Part shown: in pieces, positions 4,962-57,339 of the stretch | Layout of the letters: every line of letters starts with the position of its first letter | How positions within the stretch are numbered: position 1 is the first letter of the stretch | From: Candidatus Nitrosotenuis aquarius | GTDB lineage: Archaea; Thermoproteota; Nitrososphaeria; Nitrososphaerales; Nitrosopumilaceae | DNA length: 64,000 nucleotides | Direction: 5' to 3' | Assembly: GCF_002787055.1 (NCBI RefSeq) | Contig: NZ_CP024808.1 | Span: forward strand, 522,328 to 586,327 | The notes under the pieces: model-generated | The model's database searches: none | What the model saw: the letters and a program-made list of their open reading frames with translations, nothing else | Told to the model about the DNA's origin: nothing | Position numbers and translations under genes: made by a program

Positions 4962-5585
4962 CTATTTGCGGTTGTAGTGGATTGAGCCGTATTTTTGCTT
5001 TTTGATTTCAGCTGCTTTGTCAGCTTCTGCTTTTTGTGCTTCTTCCTTTGCTTTTTGATCTAGAGCGCCAATGTCCTTTTGGGTCTTTGGTACTTTACGA
5101 TCAGCGTCAACTTTTACTTTGAGGTCTTTTGCTGGAGCTTTTGGGAGGTTTTCTTTTTGTTCCTTTACCTTCATTGCAAAATTCTCTCTTTGTGCTTCCA
5201 AGTCAACTTGTGACTTGCTTGGACCACCAGAGGATTTTCTTGCATCAATTGCTGCCTTTGCCTCTTCTTTGATTTTTGCTAGAATGTCAGCTGCTGTTGG
5301 AAGATCGTTTTTCTTTACTGCTTCGCTTCGCTTTGCAATTGCCTCTTCGATAGCTTTGGCTGCTTGCATTTTCTTTGCTTGCATCTGTGCCTTGATATCT
5401 GCGGCTTTTTGCTTTTGCGCTTCTAGTCTGTCTGCTCTTGCTTGATCAAAAGCTTCTCTGCTTTGTTCATGTTTTGTCTTTGCGGTAGCTGCAGTGTCAG
5501 CTGTTTGTGCATAAGACAGTCCAACTGGACCAACAATCGCAGCAGTCAAAAGAAGTATTGAAGCTAGGATACCTAGTTTTTGCAT
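4962..5585 (-). CDS. Secreted Lys/Ala/Gln-rich coiled-coil protein
   Basis: Unrecognised protein of 207 residues. It begins with a signal peptide, MQKLGILASILLLTAAIVGP, cleaved after about SYAQ. The rest is almost entirely charged helix rich in Lys, Ala, Glu and Gln, with no cysteine. The signal peptide is nearly identical to that of the gene at 6440-7117, so the two are duplicates that diverged in the mature part. A structural role in the pseudo-periplasm or at the surface is possible. The opposite-strand open frame is a shadow of the biased composition. Confidence 0.7.
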   Translation of the reverse strand: MQKLGILASILLLTAAIVGPVGLSYAQTADTAATAKTKHEQSREAFDQARADRLEAQKQKAADIKAQMQAKKMQAAKAIEEAIAKRSEAVKKNDLPTAADILAKIKEEAKAAIDARKSSGGPSKSQVDLEAQRENFAMKVKEQKENLPKAPAKDLKVKVDADRKVPKTQKDIGALDQKAKEEAQKAEADKAAEIKKQKYGSIHYNRK

Positions 5586-44008: not shown

Positions 44009-44028
44009 AAAGCGCCGGGTAAGGGATT
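44009..44028. repeat. Attachment site, far end (20-bp repeat)
   Basis: AAAGCGCCGGGTAAGGGATT, identical to the tRNA-end copy at 57238-57257. Identity stops at once on both sides (the base before is A here and G there; AC follows here, CG there), as expected for a recombination core. The flank to the left is chromosomal and the flank to the right belongs to the element. Confidence 0.85.
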
Positions 44029-44200: not shown

Positions 44201-45337
44201 TCAAAGCGGATGTTTTTGTGGCTCCAATATTCGTTGTATGTCATGAATTATCCCCTTTACAGATCCAGTTTCCAGTTTTTTTTGTAAAAATGTGATATTC
44301 CAATTGGTATCATCTTTACCTCCAGTTCCAGTCAATCTTGCGTATGGGGAATTTTTCCACACTTGTTGTTCTTCCTTAGTTGGTTTATGACTCAAAATAC
44401 GGGTTCTAAAATCATACTGCGAACTAGGAGATATTGCAGCAAAGATTCCTCCTCGATCTACAAACTCCTTAAATTTTTCATTAATGTGCTCATCTCTGAA
44501 GGAAAAACCAATTACCACACACATATCTATGGATTTCATTAATTCATCAAACTTATTTAGAATCGAATTGTATGGCTCTTTCCCATTTGCTTCTTCTTTT
44601 GGAGATAATGTTGGATATATCAGAAAATCTTCTTCATAATTCGGATCTTCGGGTTTTCTTTCATAGGTAGTTCTTTCAATTCCATAATTCTTGTGTTTTT
44701 TCCAATTTAGTGAACCGTGAATCTTGTATAAGTATACTTTAGTCTTGTTTGTTATTGCATCAGCATAGGAGTAATCACCACCATTCCAACGGAATCTTCC
44801 GCTATCTTCATGTAGTTTGAATCCGTCAACACAAAAGTAATTGTTATCGTCTCTGCTACAAAATTCTTCTACCGCCCTATCGTAGTTTGTGGTGAAAACA
44901 ATAATCTTCTCTGATTTTGTTTTAAGAAGTTCTAAAATTGGATGTAGTATTTGGTATGCAGCATTATCGGATTGATCCTTATCCCAGGAGTAGTTCTCAA
45001 ATACTTCTTTTTCTAAAGTTAATTTGATATCTCCGAGATCACCTACTAAGTCATTATATCCTTGATTTCCACGATCAAGTCCTATTATCAATCGGCCTTT
45101 CTCTCCAAGCCATTGTAGGAATTGACCCCCTAGTTGTTTTTGGAATATAGTTAGATCCTTCATTGTTTGGAGAATATGCTCCACATCTTCAAAAATATCG
45201 CATGCAAGTAATGTTTGTAAATAACTTCGGCCTGGTTGATTTCCAAATTTATCAATTAAATTGTTCCGCAATTGAGACGTTGTTGGTTTTCCATATGGCA
45301 CCGATGCTCCAGCTCCAAGAAACAGCGCTATTTTCAA
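44201..45337 (-). CDS. SIR2-domain protein, putative NAD+-hydrolysing defence effector
   Basis: A 378-residue protein with the SIR2_2-like fold. Motifs: LFLGAGAS at the N terminus (G8-S12), FTTNYDRA with N151, YKIHGSLNW with the catalytic-type H207 and VVIGFSFRDEHIN. The four zinc Cys of true sirtuins are absent, as in prokaryotic defence SIR2 proteins that deplete NAD+. A C-terminal part of about 75 residues has no recognised SLOG or APAZ domain. It is divergent from the TIR gene with a 148-base gap, which suggests coordinated control. Function is inferred from family knowledge. Confidence 0.8.
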   Translation of the reverse strand: MKIALFLGAGASVPYGKPTTSQLRNNLIDKFGNQPGRSYLQTLLACDIFEDVEHILQTMKDLTIFQKQLGGQFLQWLGEKGRLIIGLDRGNQGYNDLVGDLGDIKLTLEKEVFENYSWDKDQSDNAAYQILHPILELLKTKSEKIIVFTTNYDRAVEEFCSRDDNNYFCVDGFKLHEDSGRFRWNGGDYSYADAITNKTKVYLYKIHGSLNWKKHKNYGIERTTYERKPEDPNYEEDFLIYPTLSPKEEANGKEPYNSILNKFDELMKSIDMCVVIGFSFRDEHINEKFKEFVDRGGIFAAISPSSQYDFRTRILSHKPTKEEQQVWKNSPYARLTGTGGKDDTNWNITFLQKKLETGSVKGIIHDIQRILEPQKHPL

Positions 45338-45485: not shown

Positions 45486-46067
45486 ATGGTTTCTGTTTTT
45501 GTTTCCCACAGTAAACATGATATAGAATTACGCAAATTCTTTGCAGAGATCTTCAGTGGAATTGGGTTAAGAGCTCACTTCATGGAATTTGCTGAACTTG
45601 GAGGAAAATACGCCGGAAATGAGATCTCATGGATGATAAGGGCTGGTTTTTTCAGCGGACATGATACAACAGCAGTTTTTGTTCTGCTTGGAAAGAGTTT
45701 GGCAAATCCTCCAACAAACACACCTGAATTTACTCACAACTGGATAAGCTTTGAAGTAGGCGCTGCAGCAGGTTGTAGAAAACCGGTTTGGGTATTTGAA
45801 GAATTCGACAAAAACATACAATTTCCAATTCCGTTTGTTACTGATTATGTGAAGTATGATTTGGATAATGTAGATCATCTAAAAATTCTAAGACAGATCT
45901 TCAAGGAAAAAATTCAATATCCAAGCGGACAACAGACCATAAAACCAAAACAAAACGTAAAATGCCCTTGGGAAAACTGTAACGCAGAATATCGATTTTG
46001 GTCTGATGCGGATGCAATAAACTGTCCCGTTTGCAGAAGAGGGATAACTTTTAACAAAACTCAATGA
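45486..46067 (+). CDS. TIR-domain protein with C-terminal zinc ribbon
   Basis: A 193-residue protein. The TIR fold starts VSVFVSHSKHDIELRKFFAEIF, with WISFEVGAA at about 86-93, where W86-xxx-E90 matches the catalytic Trp/Glu of TIR NADases. A zinc ribbon follows with C160-x4-C165 and C180-x2-C183. TIR proteins in Thoeris make a cyclic-ADP-ribose-type signal that activates a SIR2 effector; here a SIR2 gene is divergent, so a comparable circuit is possible. The zinc ribbon tail is unusual. ATG start is clear. Confidence 0.75.
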   Translation: MVSVFVSHSKHDIELRKFFAEIFSGIGLRAHFMEFAELGGKYAGNEISWMIRAGFFSGHDTTAVFVLLGKSLANPPTNTPEFTHNWISFEVGAAAGCRKPVWVFEEFDKNIQFPIPFVTDYVKYDLDNVDHLKILRQIFKEKIQYPSGQQTIKPKQNVKCPWENCNAEYRFWSDADAINCPVCRRGITFNKTQ

Positions 46068-48017: not shown

Positions 48018-48530
48018 TCAGAGAGGGCCAGATTTTATGATGCCCACTTGGAATGCTGGATTTGTATCATAACATTCTTTGCATACTTGGAAAATTGGTG
48101 TACCATTTTTCCCATGATCGTATGTTATTTCAAACGCAGGTTTGTGGCTCATACTACAATAGTATATGCGTGATGCATGTGTGTCATTCTTCAGTATTGG
48201 TCGTCGAGGCGTACAAAACTCACCAAAGAATTTTATCGAATGTATGTCCATGTGCAAATATAGATTCTCAATCGCCGATTCATCCATTATTTTCATGGCC
48301 ATATCGTTGATGAAACCACCATAATTTTGCAACATGTTCTCAAAGCTGTCACTGATCTTCCTTACTGACATATTATCACTGCAAGTGATTTTGACTATCA
48401 GAACACATCCATTTTCATTCTTGTTTTGAAGTTCCAGTTCTTCTTTCTGTATTGCTTTTTCGATGGCAAGACTAATTCGTTGTTCTTTGTTCAGATTCTT
48501 CACCTCCATGAGTGGGAACCCGATCAGCAT
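48018..48530 (-). CDS. Cys-containing protein of unknown function in the element
   Basis: A 170-residue soluble protein. Its N-terminal half is an alpha-helical/beta mix (RISLAIEKAIQKEELEL and GCVLIVKITCSDNMSVRKISDSF). The C terminus has YYCSMSHKPAFEITYDHG and VCKEC, suggesting a small zinc knuckle. It is divergent from the AbrB-like gene, with three regularly spaced palindromic sites in between, so they are probably controlled together. Confidence 0.5.
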   Translation of the reverse strand: MLIGFPLMEVKNLNKEQRISLAIEKAIQKEELELQNKNENGCVLIVKITCSDNMSVRKISDSFENMLQNYGGFINDMAMKIMDESAIENLYLHMDIHSIKFFGEFCTPRRPILKNDTHASRIYYCSMSHKPAFEITYDHGKNGTPIFQVCKECYDTNPAFQVGIIKSGPL

Positions 48531-48570
48531 TTCTTGGTCGATTTGTGAAATTCATTTTTTGCACAGTAAA

Positions 48571-48630
48571 GTATGTACATACTTCTATATCAATATATGT
48601 ACATACATTTTAATACACGTAGGTACATAT
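48571..48630. promoter_or_regulatory. Three palindromic GTAC-centred operator-like sites at 24-bp spacing
   Basis: GTATGTACATAC at 48571-48582, TATGTACATA at 48596-48605 and GGTACATA at 48622-48629. Their GTAC centres fall at 48576.5, 48600.5 and 48624.5, so the spacing is 24 bases in both intervals. They lie in the 119-base gap between the AbrB-like gene and its divergent partner. The third site is imperfect and nearest the AbrB-like start. This looks like an autoregulated operator. Confidence 0.65.
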
Positions 48631-48649
48631 AGTTATCAACGACCAAGAA

Positions 48650-48826
48650 ATGCAAAGTATGAAGCTAAAGAAGCATCTGAACCGCAAGGACCGAAACACG
48701 GGCCATGAATTCTACCGTTATGACATCACAATCAATCCAGAAATAATCCGAGAATTGGGCTGGAAAGATGGTGACGAATTAGATGCAGAAGTTAAAGGGA
48801 AAGAACTTCGAATAAAGAAAAAATAA
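48650..48826 (+). CDS. AbrB/SpoVT-like DNA-binding protein
   Basis: A 58-residue protein: YDITINPEIIRELGWKDGDELDAE is the AbrB/MazE swapped-hairpin pattern (strand, helix, GDE turn), followed by the KGKELRIKK strand. It starts MQSMKLKKHL with a basic N terminus. Such proteins regulate viral or toxin genes. The three palindromes begin 80 bases upstream, and autoregulation is likely. It is too short for routine gene calling. Confidence 0.75.
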   Translation: MQSMKLKKHLNRKDRNTGHEFYRYDITINPEIIRELGWKDGDELDAEVKGKELRIKKK

Positions 48827-49047: not shown

Positions 49048-50775
49048 CTAAACTCTGTTATAATGTCCAGGTTTGGATTCGTAAATTGAAGCATCACTTA
49101 AGAATCTTCGAATAGAGTTCTTTGCTTCATCTTCCTTGAATCTACCCGTTTTGATCAATTCGGCAACAAAGAGTTTTTCTTCAACGGGTGTTTTCCTATC
49201 GCCCTCTAAACCGCGCAGAATATCAAAAAACAACTGAGGCATAATACGTCGACGTTTGTCTTCTTCCTCAAGTTTCTTCTTAATTTCAGTTGTAGTGGTA
49301 TTACAATGATCATGTACAGACTCATAGATCTGTCTAACTGACATCATTTGCCAAATCATGTCATTCGCAGAATTTTCAGTGAATTTTCGAGTTTTTATTA
49401 GATGTTTAACTAATGTTCTGTGTTCTATGGGTTTTCTTTCAGGACCTTCTAACTCTCTAATCTTTTTCATGAACAATTCATCATTCAATAGAGGAAGTCC
49501 ATTCTCATCAGTTTCTTCCTGATGTATCGAGTCGGTTTTGACGTTATCTTTCGCCACAGGATAACGTTTCAACAACTCTTCCAGCTTTGTTCTGTCGATT
49601 AACTCGATGTTATTGGATTTTGCCAGGTTTATTGCAGAATCATGAAAGAAATTATTCGTAACAACTATGCCGCCATCCGCATCATAGTGTTTTATTGCAG
49701 TTCCTATCTCTTGGACAGCTTTGTTGGATATTTTATTCTGTGATTTTTTACTTTGGACTACCTGTTTCCGTCCTAATTTTTCTATTATTAGATCAGCACC
49801 TTGATCTCCTGAACCTTTTGTTACCATCGCATCATATCCCATTTTTTTGAAAAGAGTTTCTAGAAAAACCTCAAAATCACGGCCATTCATTCTATCACAA
49901 TCATTCATAGTGACAGATTCGGCCGTTACAGATAAGGTATTTTTGAAATTTTCTAATTCTAATTGTTCTTTAACTTCAGCAACACGGTTCTCTAGATCTG
50001 TTGTAGAATGTTGTTTTTCAGTAGCAAGTCTGTCTAATTCTGACAAATGGTTTTCGTAGCTATCACCGTAAATGTTAAGAAAATTATGTATGATATCTTC
50101 AAGGTTTGCTGGATCATTAGAATACATTCGCTCGACAAATTTCTCATATCCGATCTCCTGTTTCAAATGTCTGAGAATGTTCAATATTGGAATAGCATTT
50201 GCATCCACATTTTTTGTTTTGAGGATTTTTGCTAATTTTATGTATTCATCTCCAATTGGTGACGGGCCATATTTTATTACAAAGTTTTTTAGAAGAGTTA
50301 TTACATCATTATCAAATTTTGAAACAATATTTTTGATTTCTTGTTGTTCTGCTTCTTTGGTTTTCTTCAACGCTAACGATTTTTGCTCAGCAGTTTGTTG
50401 CTGCTCTTTTTGATGATTTAGATAATTAAGTTGTTTTTCATTTAATTGTCCTATCTCAATGAATAATTTCTCATCATTATCGAATGGAATGTTATAACTA
50501 TGAATTGGATCTAGTAGTCTCGAATCAAATAGAATTTTACCTTGCTTGATTCGTTCTTCAAGAGAATCGGCAGTCATTTTTGTTCTTAATTTCTCCATCA
50601 TGGACTTTAATGACAATGTTATGTTAGAAATATCACCATTTTCAATCATGGTAAGTCCATCATATACGCCAAGAAGATATTCTCTGTCCTCAGAAGTTAG
50701 AAAAGTCACATCACGTTGGGTTTGCCATTTGTTCAGAATATCTTTCAGTTTTGGGTATTGTTCAAGAATGTCCAT
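49048..50775 (-). CDS. Mrr-type restriction endonuclease-like protein with coiled coil
   Basis: A 575-residue protein. The N-terminal 290 residues are helical and coiled coil (LEERIKQGKILFDS, NHQKEQQQTAEQKSLALKK). The Mrr catalytic domain lies at about 290-410: F301-E302, D328 in GDQGADLIIEK, then VVQSKK with Q341-K343, in place of the usual D..(E/Q)xK. The C-terminal 150 residues are two winged-helix repeats ending IYESVHDHC and IYESKPGHY. Such domains recognise modified or foreign DNA. No methyltransferase is nearby, so a type IV role is plausible. Confidence 0.7.
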   Translation of the reverse strand: MDILEQYPKLKDILNKWQTQRDVTFLTSEDREYLLGVYDGLTMIENGDISNITLSLKSMMEKLRTKMTADSLEERIKQGKILFDSRLLDPIHSYNIPFDNDEKLFIEIGQLNEKQLNYLNHQKEQQQTAEQKSLALKKTKEAEQQEIKNIVSKFDNDVITLLKNFVIKYGPSPIGDEYIKLAKILKTKNVDANAIPILNILRHLKQEIGYEKFVERMYSNDPANLEDIIHNFLNIYGDSYENHLSELDRLATEKQHSTTDLENRVAEVKEQLELENFKNTLSVTAESVTMNDCDRMNGRDFEVFLETLFKKMGYDAMVTKGSGDQGADLIIEKLGRKQVVQSKKSQNKISNKAVQEIGTAIKHYDADGGIVVTNNFFHDSAINLAKSNNIELIDRTKLEELLKRYPVAKDNVKTDSIHQEETDENGLPLLNDELFMKKIRELEGPERKPIEHRTLVKHLIKTRKFTENSANDMIWQMMSVRQIYESVHDHCNTTTTEIKKKLEEEDKRRRIMPQLFFDILRGLEGDRKTPVEEKLFVAELIKTGRFKEDEAKNSIRRFLSDASIYESKPGHYNRV

Positions 50776-50846: not shown

Positions 50847-52583
50847 TTACGCTAATGCTGCAAGCTGTTTGTAGAGCTTCATTCCTTCGATATCTGATCT
50901 TCCTTGGCTTGTAGCATACATTGACATATAGGTTCCTGCATCCAGTCCGATGAATCCTGCATCTGAGGCAATCTTGGCTCTTGCTGCTGCAACCTGACGG
51001 TTGTATTCTATCATCTGCGCATCATAACTAGCCTGTGCTTGCCTGATTGATTGTTGCAGGAATTCATTACTTGGTGATCTGTATCCTCTGACCATTGCAC
51101 TTAGATTGAAGCTTGGGGCTTGAATACTGAATCCTAGTAACGCAAGTTCATCTATTGTTGACTGCAATCCAGCTATTGTTTTTTGGAATGGTGCTTCAAC
51201 TGCAGCAACTCCCCAGCCTGGCTTTGCGCCGCCGTGTTTTGATGATCTGCCTTTGGCCCCTTTACCTGCCGAAATTCCACCCAGGCTTTGAGCTTTTGAT
51301 CCAATAGAACCGAATGGATTAGTACCATGGAATTTCTGGGATTGTACGTAAGCGGAGGCAGACTCTTGTGATATGCCGCCAAACTGAGAAAGTATTCCAG
51401 AACCATGTAAGTTAGAATATCCGCCACCCCCACCTAGAGCGGCCCTGCGGAAGACATCACTAATCAAACCTGAAACATAACTCATAACCCTGAATTGATT
51501 TGTGTTTATGCCTCTACCAGTAATGTTTCTGTTCCATAGTTCTGCATTGGCATCAATAAAACCAACAATGCCAGACTTGTCCGCAAAAAAAGCTCGATTT
51601 CGCTCTTCTGTCTTTCTTTCAAATTCCCGCTCAAATTCGATTATCTTTTGCTTGAGGGCCTGATCATTTAGTGCGTCTGCTATGCTGAGGAGATGCCCTG
51701 TTGCAATGTACGTGTCGTTTAGAAATCCTGCTATGCTATCTTCGTTTTTTTTTAAATTGTCAATCTTTGATGATGTGAGATCAATAGTTCGGCTCAACCC
51801 CTCCATTCTGTTGGTAGTCTCTGCAACAGAGTTGCCGTACGATTGCATTGTTGGGATTCCGCCAGTTTGCATTTCAGTGTTGAACTCTTGCATTTTTGGG
51901 GTTGCACCACCAAAGGACCCGATAAGTGAGTCTACCTTGTCTTTTACTCCAAACAGATTAGTCGAATAGATTCCAAGTGCAGCAACAGAACCTGCAACTA
52001 GTGCAAGACCAAGAGGGTTTGACATCATGGCCGCAGTCAAAGCCCGAAAGGATGCAGTCAGACCAACATTAGCTACTGCCTGTCCAGTAGCCGCAGAACC
52101 AGCTACAATGTGAGCAGTGGCCATACTTCTTAAGGAAATTATCGTTGTTGCCATCGTCAAGCCTGTTGTTGCCAGCGACAGTCCAAGCTGGATCGTCTGC
52201 TGTTTTACGTCTCCTGCAGCCTGAGAGGCTTGTTCCTGGGCCAGCCTGAGCCTTTCCGTTGCAATCGTGTATTCTTCCGTGTTTGTCTTGCCTTCTCTTT
52301 CCAGATCATTTACCTGCTTTTGTGCGCGCGCCACTGCTAGGGCTGATTTTTCTGCCCTAAGTTGGACCTTTTCCAGCTGATCAAACCCCTGGTACGCACT
52401 AAACACAGACGTACCCAAACCAAGCATGGATGTGGCCATCATTTTTGTGGAGAATTCTGTTTTCTTGCCAACAGATTCACTTTTTGTTTCTATTCGGTTC
52501 AGAGTGTTTTCTACTTTCTGGCCATTTGCCACAACAGAATCCGCCTCCATCTCAAGCCGGATTACTCCTGTTGGCAGGCTCAT
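50847..52583 (-). CDS. Tail tape-measure-like protein
   Basis: A 578-residue protein. Its N-terminal quarter is coiled coil (EKSALAVARAQKQVNDLERE), followed by long hydrophobic helices (LGLSLATTGLTMATTIISL, MSNPLGLALVAGSVAALGIY), then a helical part, and a Gly/Ser-rich low-complexity region (SAGKGAKGRSSKHGGAKPG) with a helical end. This order is typical of phage tape-measure proteins, though short. The gene overlaps the upstream gene by four bases. It is the last gene of the leftward viral cluster. Confidence 0.65.
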   Translation of the reverse strand: MSLPTGVIRLEMEADSVVANGQKVENTLNRIETKSESVGKKTEFSTKMMATSMLGLGTSVFSAYQGFDQLEKVQLRAEKSALAVARAQKQVNDLEREGKTNTEEYTIATERLRLAQEQASQAAGDVKQQTIQLGLSLATTGLTMATTIISLRSMATAHIVAGSAATGQAVANVGLTASFRALTAAMMSNPLGLALVAGSVAALGIYSTNLFGVKDKVDSLIGSFGGATPKMQEFNTEMQTGGIPTMQSYGNSVAETTNRMEGLSRTIDLTSSKIDNLKKNEDSIAGFLNDTYIATGHLLSIADALNDQALKQKIIEFEREFERKTEERNRAFFADKSGIVGFIDANAELWNRNITGRGINTNQFRVMSYVSGLISDVFRRAALGGGGGYSNLHGSGILSQFGGISQESASAYVQSQKFHGTNPFGSIGSKAQSLGGISAGKGAKGRSSKHGGAKPGWGVAAVEAPFQKTIAGLQSTIDELALLGFSIQAPSFNLSAMVRGYRSPSNEFLQQSIRQAQASYDAQMIEYNRQVAAARAKIASDAGFIGLDAGTYMSMYATSQGRSDIEGMKLYKQLAALA

Positions 52584-55033: not shown

Positions 55034-55191
55034 CACTTGATCTCCTCTTTGGATTTGATAAATCGGCTGAAACATGGGAGTACAGAGCATTCACTGCAAA
55101 CAGCGGTGGTTTCACCAGTTAGATAGGTAATTTTGAAAGACGGTTCTTTCTCACAACAAGAAAAAATTTGGGAGGTCAGATCACTTATCAC
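55033..55191 (-). CDS. 52-residue zinc-finger-like microprotein
   Basis: Reads MISDLTSQIFSCCEKEPSFK, then a TGETTAVCSECSVLPCF segment and the basic end KSKEEIK. Cys pairs CC and CSEC suggest one zinc site, with a further C. It uses a GTG start that overlaps the stop region of the VapB-like gene, and its stop overlaps the HNH start by one base. No other frame gives a sensible product here. Function unknown. Confidence 0.6.
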   Translation of the reverse strand: MISDLTSQIFSCCEKEPSFKITYLTGETTAVCSECSVLPCFSRFIKSKEEIK

Positions 55192-55318
55192 CCTTTTTTG
55201 TTTGCTCAAGTAGTTTGGTTATCACACCATCAAACGAATCACCCGCTTGGCCACGAGATTTGAGTTCAAAGTAATTCTGTTGAGACACCGCAATGCATTT
55301 GAGAGATTTAGAACTCAT
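55181..55318 (-). CDS. VapB-like ribbon-helix-helix antitoxin or regulator
   Basis: A 45-residue protein: SLKCIAVSQQNYFELKSRG then GDSFDGVITKLLEQ. The strand plus ELK..G..GDSFDxVI..LL pattern is that of the archaeal VapB-type antitoxin family. No VapC toxin follows; instead the zinc microprotein and HNH genes do. It may be an element-specific repressor. It is the first gene of the leftward viral cluster. An AT-rich stretch (AATTAATAG) lies upstream. Confidence 0.65.
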   Translation of the reverse strand: MSSKSLKCIAVSQQNYFELKSRGQAGDSFDGVITKLLEQTKKGDK

Positions 55319-55962: not shown

Positions 55963-57195
55963 TTATGGTTCTATATCCATTCCTAGTTTTTTAGCCATAG
56001 ATTTGAGAATTCGATCCTGGCGCTCTACCTTATCCGCAAGCATCTCATTCTTTTGTTTGGTTTCCTCGTCTTGCAATAACGCCTTATCAAGACTTAGCGC
56101 TTTGGTACATTTCTCGCAATAATCCACATCATGAGCGTTTGGCCAGCCACATGTTGGGCATTTTTTAGGCAGTTTGAGATCCGCCTTTGTTTGCTTCTTT
56201 ATCCCATAATGGCCCAATAGAGCCTCGTCAACATCCTCATCAACCAAGTGAGTGTATCTTGCAGGCATCTTGGAGCTTGACGACCACCCATAGCGTTTCT
56301 TTTGGTGTGCTTCAGTTAGGAAATTAGCTGTCTGTGTGATCTGGGAGTGTCTGAACAGATGAAAATAGACACGTTTGGGCAGATTTGCAAGCTCGACTCT
56401 TTTCTGGATTATCTCTCTAGCTCCCTTGTATGTCAAATGCGAACCATATTGGAATTTGCTCAGGTTTATCCATAACGGTGATTCTGTGTTTTCCTTGAAC
56501 GGGTGAGCATTAAGCCAGGCGATAAGATATGGTGCAGAAGTCAGTAATCTGATGGGCCTTGCGTTGGTCTTGCCATCCACCTTGATAATTGCACCGTAAT
56601 CATCTACGACGACATGTTTGATTTGTAGGGTAAGTGTTTCACCTATTCTTGTACCAGCCTCGTTGTGAACTGCGATTAACGCCCTGTCCCTGAGATTCTC
56701 ACCACAGGCATGAAGTATTTTTGTCATATCACCCTCGGAGATTAGATCCTCCCTTGAAAGCCTGTCTTTGACTCGCCTCATCTTGATTTTGCGTATTTCC
56801 GGCGGATCTAGTGTGTCGGGATCTTTGTGCCTGGAGCCTGTTTTTAGCCACCTGTAGAATATCTTCAAGACCTTTTTGTGGTCCGCCGTGGTGTGTGTTT
56901 CCTGTCCAGAATCAGAGTATTTTTGCACGATAGTTACGACTAGCTTTTGAATGTCACCAGAACTAACCTCATCCCATTCTTTCTTTAGGAATCTAGACAG
57001 GTTTAACATGACTTCAAGGTGTTTTAGCTGTGTTGCTTTTGAGATGGATTCGGAGATCATCTCGTCGTGGTATTTTTTGATTAATGTCACTGTCTTTTTG
57101 GATAATGCGTTCTCAATTCTGCGTAGAACTGAGCTGATCCTTTGATCATAATTGTGAATATCCGGCTTTAGTTTGGAGTTTAGGGATTGTTTCAT
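55963..57195 (-). CDS. Tyrosine recombinase (integrase)
   Basis: A 410-residue site-specific recombinase. Catalytic residues: R183 in GTRIGETL, H279 and R282 in FHLFRHSQ, W304 in YGWSS, and nucleophile Y314 in RYTHLVD. An N-terminal helical core-binding region (about 30-120) precedes, and the C terminus has a zinc ribbon C346-x2-C349..C360-x2-C363 (CPTCGW and CEKCTK) and a coiled end. Its gene ends 43 bases before the attachment site at the tRNA and is intact, unlike SSV-type integrases, whose genes are split by integration. Confidence 0.9.
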   Translation of the reverse strand: MKQSLNSKLKPDIHNYDQRISSVLRRIENALSKKTVTLIKKYHDEMISESISKATQLKHLEVMLNLSRFLKKEWDEVSSGDIQKLVVTIVQKYSDSGQETHTTADHKKVLKIFYRWLKTGSRHKDPDTLDPPEIRKIKMRRVKDRLSREDLISEGDMTKILHACGENLRDRALIAVHNEAGTRIGETLTLQIKHVVVDDYGAIIKVDGKTNARPIRLLTSAPYLIAWLNAHPFKENTESPLWINLSKFQYGSHLTYKGAREIIQKRVELANLPKRVYFHLFRHSQITQTANFLTEAHQKKRYGWSSSSKMPARYTHLVDEDVDEALLGHYGIKKQTKADLKLPKKCPTCGWPNAHDVDYCEKCTKALSLDKALLQDEETKQKNEMLADKVERQDRILKSMAKKLGMDIEP

Positions 57196-57237: not shown

Positions 57238-57257
57238 AAAGCGCCGGGTAAGGGATT
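57238..57257. repeat. Attachment site, tRNA end (20-bp repeat)
   Basis: AAAGCGCCGGGTAAGGGATT, identical to the copy at 44009-44028 and 13,229 bases apart. It covers the acceptor and part of the T-arm 3' side of the tRNA plus four bases beyond its end, which is a common archaeal integration target and leaves the tRNA intact. Confidence 0.9.
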
Positions 57258-57339
57258 CGAACCCCTGAGTGCGAATGCACAACCGCTATCCTGTGAGATT
57301 GATCTCGAGGCGGTCGCCGTACCGCTTGGCTAACCCGGC
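57242..57339 (-). tRNA. tRNA-Ser (CGA anticodon) with a 16-base intron
   Basis: The transcript begins GCCGGGT and ends ACCCGGC plus discriminator G, a perfect 7-bp acceptor stem. The D-arm GCC..GGC, the anticodon stem ACCGC/GCGGT, a long variable arm GTGCATTCGCAC (class II) and the T-arm AGGGGTTCGAATCCCTT follow. The loop between anticodon stems is 23 bases; removing 16 bases between positions 37 and 38 leaves CTCGAGA with anticodon CGA, giving serine. CCA is not encoded. The intron position is inferred from the usual canonical site. Confidence 0.85.

Follow-up and report, generated by a model that had tools for sequence, protein, structure and literature searches.

A palindrome array between divergent genes of an integrated archaeal element is a probable operator of the adjacent AbrB/MazE-type regulator

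Introduction

Three palindromes spaced exactly 24 bp apart, on an element integrated at a tRNA-Ser gene, are likely to be the operator array of the 55-aa AbrB/MazE-type autoregulator encoded immediately downstream, which would control both its own gene and the divergent one. This assignment, including DNA binding and repression, is drawn from comparative sequence analysis. Little is known about how archaeal mobile elements silence their own transposases and integration genes. If our assignment holds, an operator can be read beside each gene for a tiny repressor and shifts with a few residues of the protein, so that one could directly test how AbrB-fold proteins recognise DNA, as a code, and how specific the repression of archaeal transposons is.

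Results

Three equally spaced palindromes lie between divergent genes

Direct reading and a repeat search of the window (the whole 64-kb stretch of DNA analyzed here) confirmed what an earlier note on this DNA had reported: three GTAC-centred palindromes with centres at 48576.5, 48600.5 and 48624.5, hence spacings of 24 and 24 bp.

48569..48584, no strand: putative operator site 1, AAGTATGTACATACTT, a perfect 16-bp palindrome centred at 48576.5
48595..48606, no strand: putative operator site 2, ATATGTACATAC, centred at 48600.5
48619..48630, no strand: putative operator site 3, GTAGGTACATAT, centred at 48624.5 (48619–48629 read GTAGGTACATA)

Sites 1 and 2 are perfectly palindromic across at least 10 bp. 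Site 3 differs by one base in one half-site (TAGG for TATG) and keeps CATA in the other; TAGG is the commonest half-site among the relatives described below. The earlier note had also judged the equal spacing to be unlikely by chance, and this judgement held. When triples were defined as 10-mers whose 4-bp core is palindromic, with no more than two mismatches and an equal spacing of 12–60 bp, the array was the sole equally spaced triple of its kind in the window, and none of 100 dinucleotide shuffles of the 64 kb contained such a triple with any palindromic core. Across the 1,697,207-bp genome, TAKGTACMTA occurs at four places, three of which are the array sites. The fourth copy lies within a 276-aa ORF and, since this remaining TATGTACATA copy is inside coding sequence, no second promoter was found in the genome.

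As the earlier note had described, the array precedes an AbrB-like gene and a divergent gene, the latter of which proved to be an orphan.

48659..48826, + strand: gene of the AbrB/MazE-type regulator (55 aa), which probably binds the sites; alternative start at 48650 (58 aa)
48018..48530, − strand: divergent gene, 170 aa, with a Cys-containing C-terminal part; no family recognised

Profile searches with the 170-aa protein found neither a recognised domain nor a DNA-binding domain. Its one relative, weak and partial, is in genome G050, and none was found in the viral contigs.

A perfect 14-bp inverted repeat flanks the array, and both divergent genes have an ATG within it, one in either arm. 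Its 13-mer CGACCAAGAAATG is absent elsewhere in the genome. The repeat could be a shared leader, or the ends of an invertible (promoter) segment.

48527..48540, no strand: left arm of the inverted repeat, GCATTTCTTGGTCG, including the ATG of the divergent gene
48640..48653, no strand: right arm of the inverted repeat, CGACCAAGAAATGC, including ATG 48650

The array is carried by an integrated element

The array is part of an integrated element of about 13.2 kb, bordered by 20-bp direct repeats at 44009–44028 and 57238–57257. The host is an archaeon of the Nitrosopumilaceae, a family of ammonia oxidisers.

44009..44028, no strand: distal attachment-site repeat (element border), AAAGCGCCGGGTAAGGGATT
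57238..57257, no strand: matching repeat at the other element border, 3' end of tRNA-Ser(CGA)
57241–57339, − strand: intron-containing tRNA-Ser(CGA), overlapping the border repeat
55963..57195, − strand: tyrosine integrase of the element (PF00589, E = 1.2e-12; PHROG integrase match)

Among the remaining genes of the element, those at 44204–45337, 45486–46067 and 49051–50775 encode a SIR2-domain protein, a protein that reads as TIR-like (without a Pfam match) and an Mrr-type nuclease, and are possibly anti-phage cargo. A 578-aa protein (50850–52583) has a weak match to phage tape-measure proteins (PHROG 3336, E = 0.00048), a hint that the element derives from a provirus or a satellite. The element also has HNH matches and, near the integrase, encodes a 45-aa VapB-type antitoxin-like protein (55184–55318; PF02697, E = 9.7e-05, below the cut-off).

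The small protein has a predicted AbrB/MazE-like fold

The earlier note had described a 58-residue AbrB-like protein. Its AbrB-like nature stood, whereas its length needed correction: ATG 48659 (55 aa, MKLKKH...) is probably the start, rather than ATG 48650 (58 aa), as judged from the alignment with relatives. The window protein scored 21.7 bits against Pfam MazE_antitoxin, under the cut-off of 24.7. The same model matched 20 of the 25 alignment members at E ≤ 0.01 (best 5.8e-9), and the NCBIfam AbrB model matched 14 of the 25. An AlphaFold2 monomer model (mean pLDDT of 92) has the order strand-strand-helix-strand-strand (E-E-H-E-E), and the top eight Foldseek matches comprised entries for C56 of pSSVi, AbrB, SpoVT, MazE and C68 of pSSVx. 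The best Foldseek E-value was only 0.08, a modest value that is expectable for 55 residues. An AbrB/MazE-like fold is therefore predicted for the small protein. It is the single member of its family in the host genome, and no relative of it was found in the viral contigs.

The MazE family match, albeit below the cut-off, and the predicted fold would also suit a MazE-type toxin-antitoxin operon with the small protein as antitoxin. However, no toxin gene follows the 55-aa gene, there is no recognised same-strand gene before the convergent Mrr-type gene, and the partners encoded in relatives are not toxins. We consider such an operon highly improbable.

The layout of regulator and array is conserved in relatives

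Homologues of the regulator were found in 18 of 200 genomes of the host's family by a single-protein search and in 79 of 400 genomes of the class by an alignment search, and also on contigs of Nitrososphaeria, DPANN and Bathyarchaeota. Most of these regulator genes are preceded by two, three or four palindromes that resemble one another, and beyond them there is usually a divergent gene. The earlier note had proposed a search for conserved spacing in relatives of the element; this check showed a strict pair of like palindromes in 21 of 65 homologue upstream regions vs 3 of 1191 control windows drawn from the same loci, counts that overstate independence because the homologues are related. The commonest spacing was 24 bp (10 loci), followed by 26 bp (5 loci), within an overall range of 23–28 bp. 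For example, TTAGGTACCTAA occurs twice, 24 bp apart, at loci L056 and L057, as does TTAGGCGCCTAC at L060; TTAGATATCTAA occurs twice at a distance of 24 bp in L074 and of 23 bp in L079; TAGGGGCCTA is spaced by 24 bp in L084, and TTATGTACATAA by 25 and 27 bp in L090. Roughly a fifth of the homologues lack a recognisable site of the classes tested. In one regulator subgroup (L059, L061, L063, L066 and L076), ATGACCCCAT repeats, 21 bp apart in L059, take the place of palindromes; judging from these repeats, a non-palindromic operator may have evolved within the family.

At most loci of relatives, the divergent gene encodes a DDE_Tnp_IS240 transposase, whose N-terminus is often a SWIM or another zinc finger; elsewhere it encodes DDE_Tnp_1, LAGLIDADG_3 or Prim-Pol proteins. 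DPANN copies have in common a block that begins at about −850 (or −950) and ends at +205, counted from the regulator start; because this block spans all three, regulator, array and transposase travel together. The window lacks the full module of its relatives: the AbrB-like gene and the array are present, and the divergent partner is the 170-aa orphan, not a DDE transposase. At the thaumarchaeal loci L056, L058, L060, L065, L073 and L094, a convergent gene follows the regulator, and an internal start region of its product (MTI-hydrophobic-G) resembles, by reading, a proteasome-type Ntn hydrolase.

The identity of the divergent gene bears on the lysogeny-type switch suggested by the earlier note. 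In a bistable form of it, the AbrB-like and 170-aa proteins would oppose each other at three operators, like CI and Cro, and set the integrated vs the excised or replicating state. A three-site operator between divergent genes on an integrase-bearing element is what such a switch would look like, and the tape-measure-like match within the element is consistent with it. Nevertheless, the 170-aa partner has almost no relatives and no recognised DNA-binding domain, and the partner in relatives is a transposase, a LAGLIDADG or a Prim-Pol protein rather than a second repressor. With mostly a transposase in relatives and an orphan in the window, we regard a switch of this kind as unlikely.

Site sequence co-varies with residues 9–11 of the protein

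Comparison of regulators with their upstream sites showed that residues 9–11 vary with the half-site. Proteins with S/N-R9-K-V at residues 8–11 are found with TTAGG half-sites, and A-Y-K/T-Y proteins with TATGG or ATGACCCCAT. R-E-V proteins are found with TTAGA, while a close relative with R-K-V (L067) has TTAGG. The window and L090 have in common R-K/R-D, a two-residue loop insert and TATG-TA-CATA. On the protein tree, the six site classes require five changes, which is the minimum, vs a mean of 17.5 for shuffled labels; the tree, built from a short alignment and of modest support, groups the window protein with those of L090 and L093.

A blind search for TATGTACATA-N13-17-TATGTACATA in 200 genomes of the family returned three genomes, and in each the pair lies beside a gene of the regulator family. 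We regard this as the strongest computational argument that the small protein binds the sites. In one of them, genome G144 (L144:1501-1588), three copies of TATGTACATA, spaced by 26 and 52 bp (2 × 26), make up the array, which lies upstream of three minus-strand ORFs in a run, the third of which is a regulator-family member. With the spacing conserved and the site sequence co-varying with the protein, it is very probable that the AbrB-like protein encoded alongside binds the palindromes, within a divergent control region, and to that extent the earlier note's proposal of a bound regulator is supported.

The sites might instead serve another regulator, either a ribbon-helix-helix protein (e.g. 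the VapB-like 45-aa protein at 55184–55318) or a host factor, with the AbrB-like gene a bystander. In viral contigs, the TATGTACATA pair was found in nine stretches, none with a regulator of this family, and the TAGGTACCTA-N13-17-TAGGTACCTA pair was not found. Exact 24-bp TATGTACATA pairs occur in viral contig L135 (5202–5235) and also in L132, L136, L137 and L138; the pair in L135 sits at the start of an ORF (4982–5224) that reads like a ribbon-helix-helix protein, and the same operator is possibly used convergently by another fold. Because viral pairs occur without an AbrB-like protein, and once at a ribbon-helix-helix-like gene, the site sequence by itself is no proof of an AbrB binder. Against another regulator, on the other hand, the site class tracks the tree of the AbrB-like protein, this protein adjoins the pair in all three family genomes that have one, and the fourth genomic copy of the site lies within coding sequence. 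We therefore think it quite unlikely that the AbrB-like gene is a bystander.

The spacing fits dimers that bracket a TATA box

The earlier note had argued that a spacing of 24 bp, being off whole helical turns, favours wrapping or alternate faces of the DNA. This argument is weakened by the relatives. The 24 bp of the window amounts to 2.3 helical turns, relatives at 25–28 bp fall in other phases, and we rejected strict helical phasing since spacings of 23–28 bp do not cluster at whole turns; as relatives occupy other phases, nothing indicates that the sites must strictly share a face or that wrapping is required, though dimers may still make cooperative contacts. Instead, 28 of 41 arrays have a TATA-like hexamer in the gap that separates their first two sites, vs 190 of 2050 control stretches of the same length. 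At 14 loci, an in-frame start of the partner gene lies 26–27 nt from the midpoint of this gap, and 26–27 nt is the normal distance from TATA box to start in archaeal leaderless genes. Because the distance fits this norm, the TATA box of the divergent gene is placed, in relatives, between sites 1 and 2. In DPANN loci, by eye, the third site lies directly before a TTTAAATA stretch upstream of the regulator start. With a TATA-like hexamer in the gap of most arrays and no clustering at whole turns, promoter geometry explains the spacing better: rather than helical phasing, the best reading is a pair of dimers, one on either side of a TATA box.

Candidate elements at the equivalent positions of the window, both weak, are as follows.

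48585..48592, − strand: weak candidate for the TATA box of the divergent gene, CTATATCA / TGATATAG, halfway between sites 1 and 2, the presumed equivalent of the relatives' hexamers
48608..48615, + strand: weak candidate for the TATA box of the AbrB-like gene by sequence reading, TTTTAATA, in the gap from site 2 to site 3

Measured from the midpoint between sites 1 and 2, the start annotated for the divergent ORF is 59 nt away instead of 26–27 nt, and because of this distance a leader or another start must be assumed for this ORF.

Boxes between the sites also bear on another suggestion of the earlier note, that the repeats are iterons of a replication origin, and on the related possibility of plasmid copy-control sites of the excised element. 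Regular repeats that adjoin a small DNA-binding gene would suit such a function, and a relative (L079) has a Prim-Pol gene across the array. However, no replication initiator was recognised among the element proteins scanned (short ORFs were partly covered), most relatives adjoin transposases of simple transposons, which need no origin, and TATA-like boxes lie between the sites. An origin or copy-control function thus found no support, and seems very doubtful.

A model for repression by promoter bracketing

In the operator-array reading that we favour, dimers of the small protein would bind each TATG-TA-CATA palindrome. The TATA element of the divergent gene would lie between sites 1 and 2, and that of the regulator's own gene would be enclosed or adjoined by sites 2 and 3. 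Once the sites are occupied, TBP/TFB or RNA polymerase would be kept from both promoters. The outcome would be autoregulation together with repression of the partner. The 24 bp would then correspond to a 12-bp site plus about 12 bp of room for a TATA box, a layout that offers a simple mechanical reason for a spacing off whole helical turns. Likewise inferred are any cooperativity between dimers, the exact promoters used in the window and the part that the 170-aa protein plays.

More tentatively, with the odds in our view slightly against it, the window may hold one version of a portable, archaea-wide cassette, in which a 50–60-aa AbrB-type repressor and TATA-bracketing palindromes control transposases, homing-endonuclease-type proteins and further mobility genes across thaumarchaea, DPANN and Bathyarchaea. 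The repressors would have diversified together with their operators into mutually non-recognising classes (TTAGG, TTAGA, TTGGG, TATGG, ATGACCCCAT and TATGT), with residues 9–11 as the determinants, and these specificity classes would be comparable to the immunity groups of phages.

Comparison with known systems

In function and setting, the nearest described system is C68 of the Sulfolobus plasmid-virus pSSVx. Like the window protein, C68 is a small AbrB-fold protein of an archaeal mobile element, and it is a Foldseek neighbour of our model. C68 binds between its own gene and a divergent gene, with one site over the BRE of its own promoter (PMC5569661). It has two sites with a TATG(C/GG)TTTTC motif (PMC5569661), whereas here the sites form a regular palindrome array.

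Ss-LrpB, like the regulator proposed here, is archaeal and would act on its own gene through three sites; it binds these sites, in the control region of that gene, cooperatively and with wrapping, acting as an activator and a repressor in a concentration-dependent manner (PMC2995911). By contrast, it has an Lrp fold and not the AbrB-type fold predicted here. E. coli MazE belongs to the same protein superfamily as the window protein and is reported to autoregulate mazEF via an alternating palindrome, the promoter of its own operon carrying palindromic elements in repeated form (Marianovsky 2001, cited in PMC9477884); the toxin partner and the operon organisation of mazEF are missing in the window.

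Insertion sequences of the IS6/IS240 type are linked to the array by DDE_Tnp_IS240, which is often encoded by the divergent gene of relatives, while the window array is without such a transposase. The passages considered from a review of IS6/IS240 elements contain no mention of an AbrB-type regulator gene or operator array (PMC7986276), and in the literature outside subscription papers we found no description of archaeal transposons that pair an AbrB-type regulator with an array of this kind. Small AbrB-fold regulators of archaeal mobile elements are known already, and the palindrome-array module on archaeal transposons appears to be a new form of such a system.
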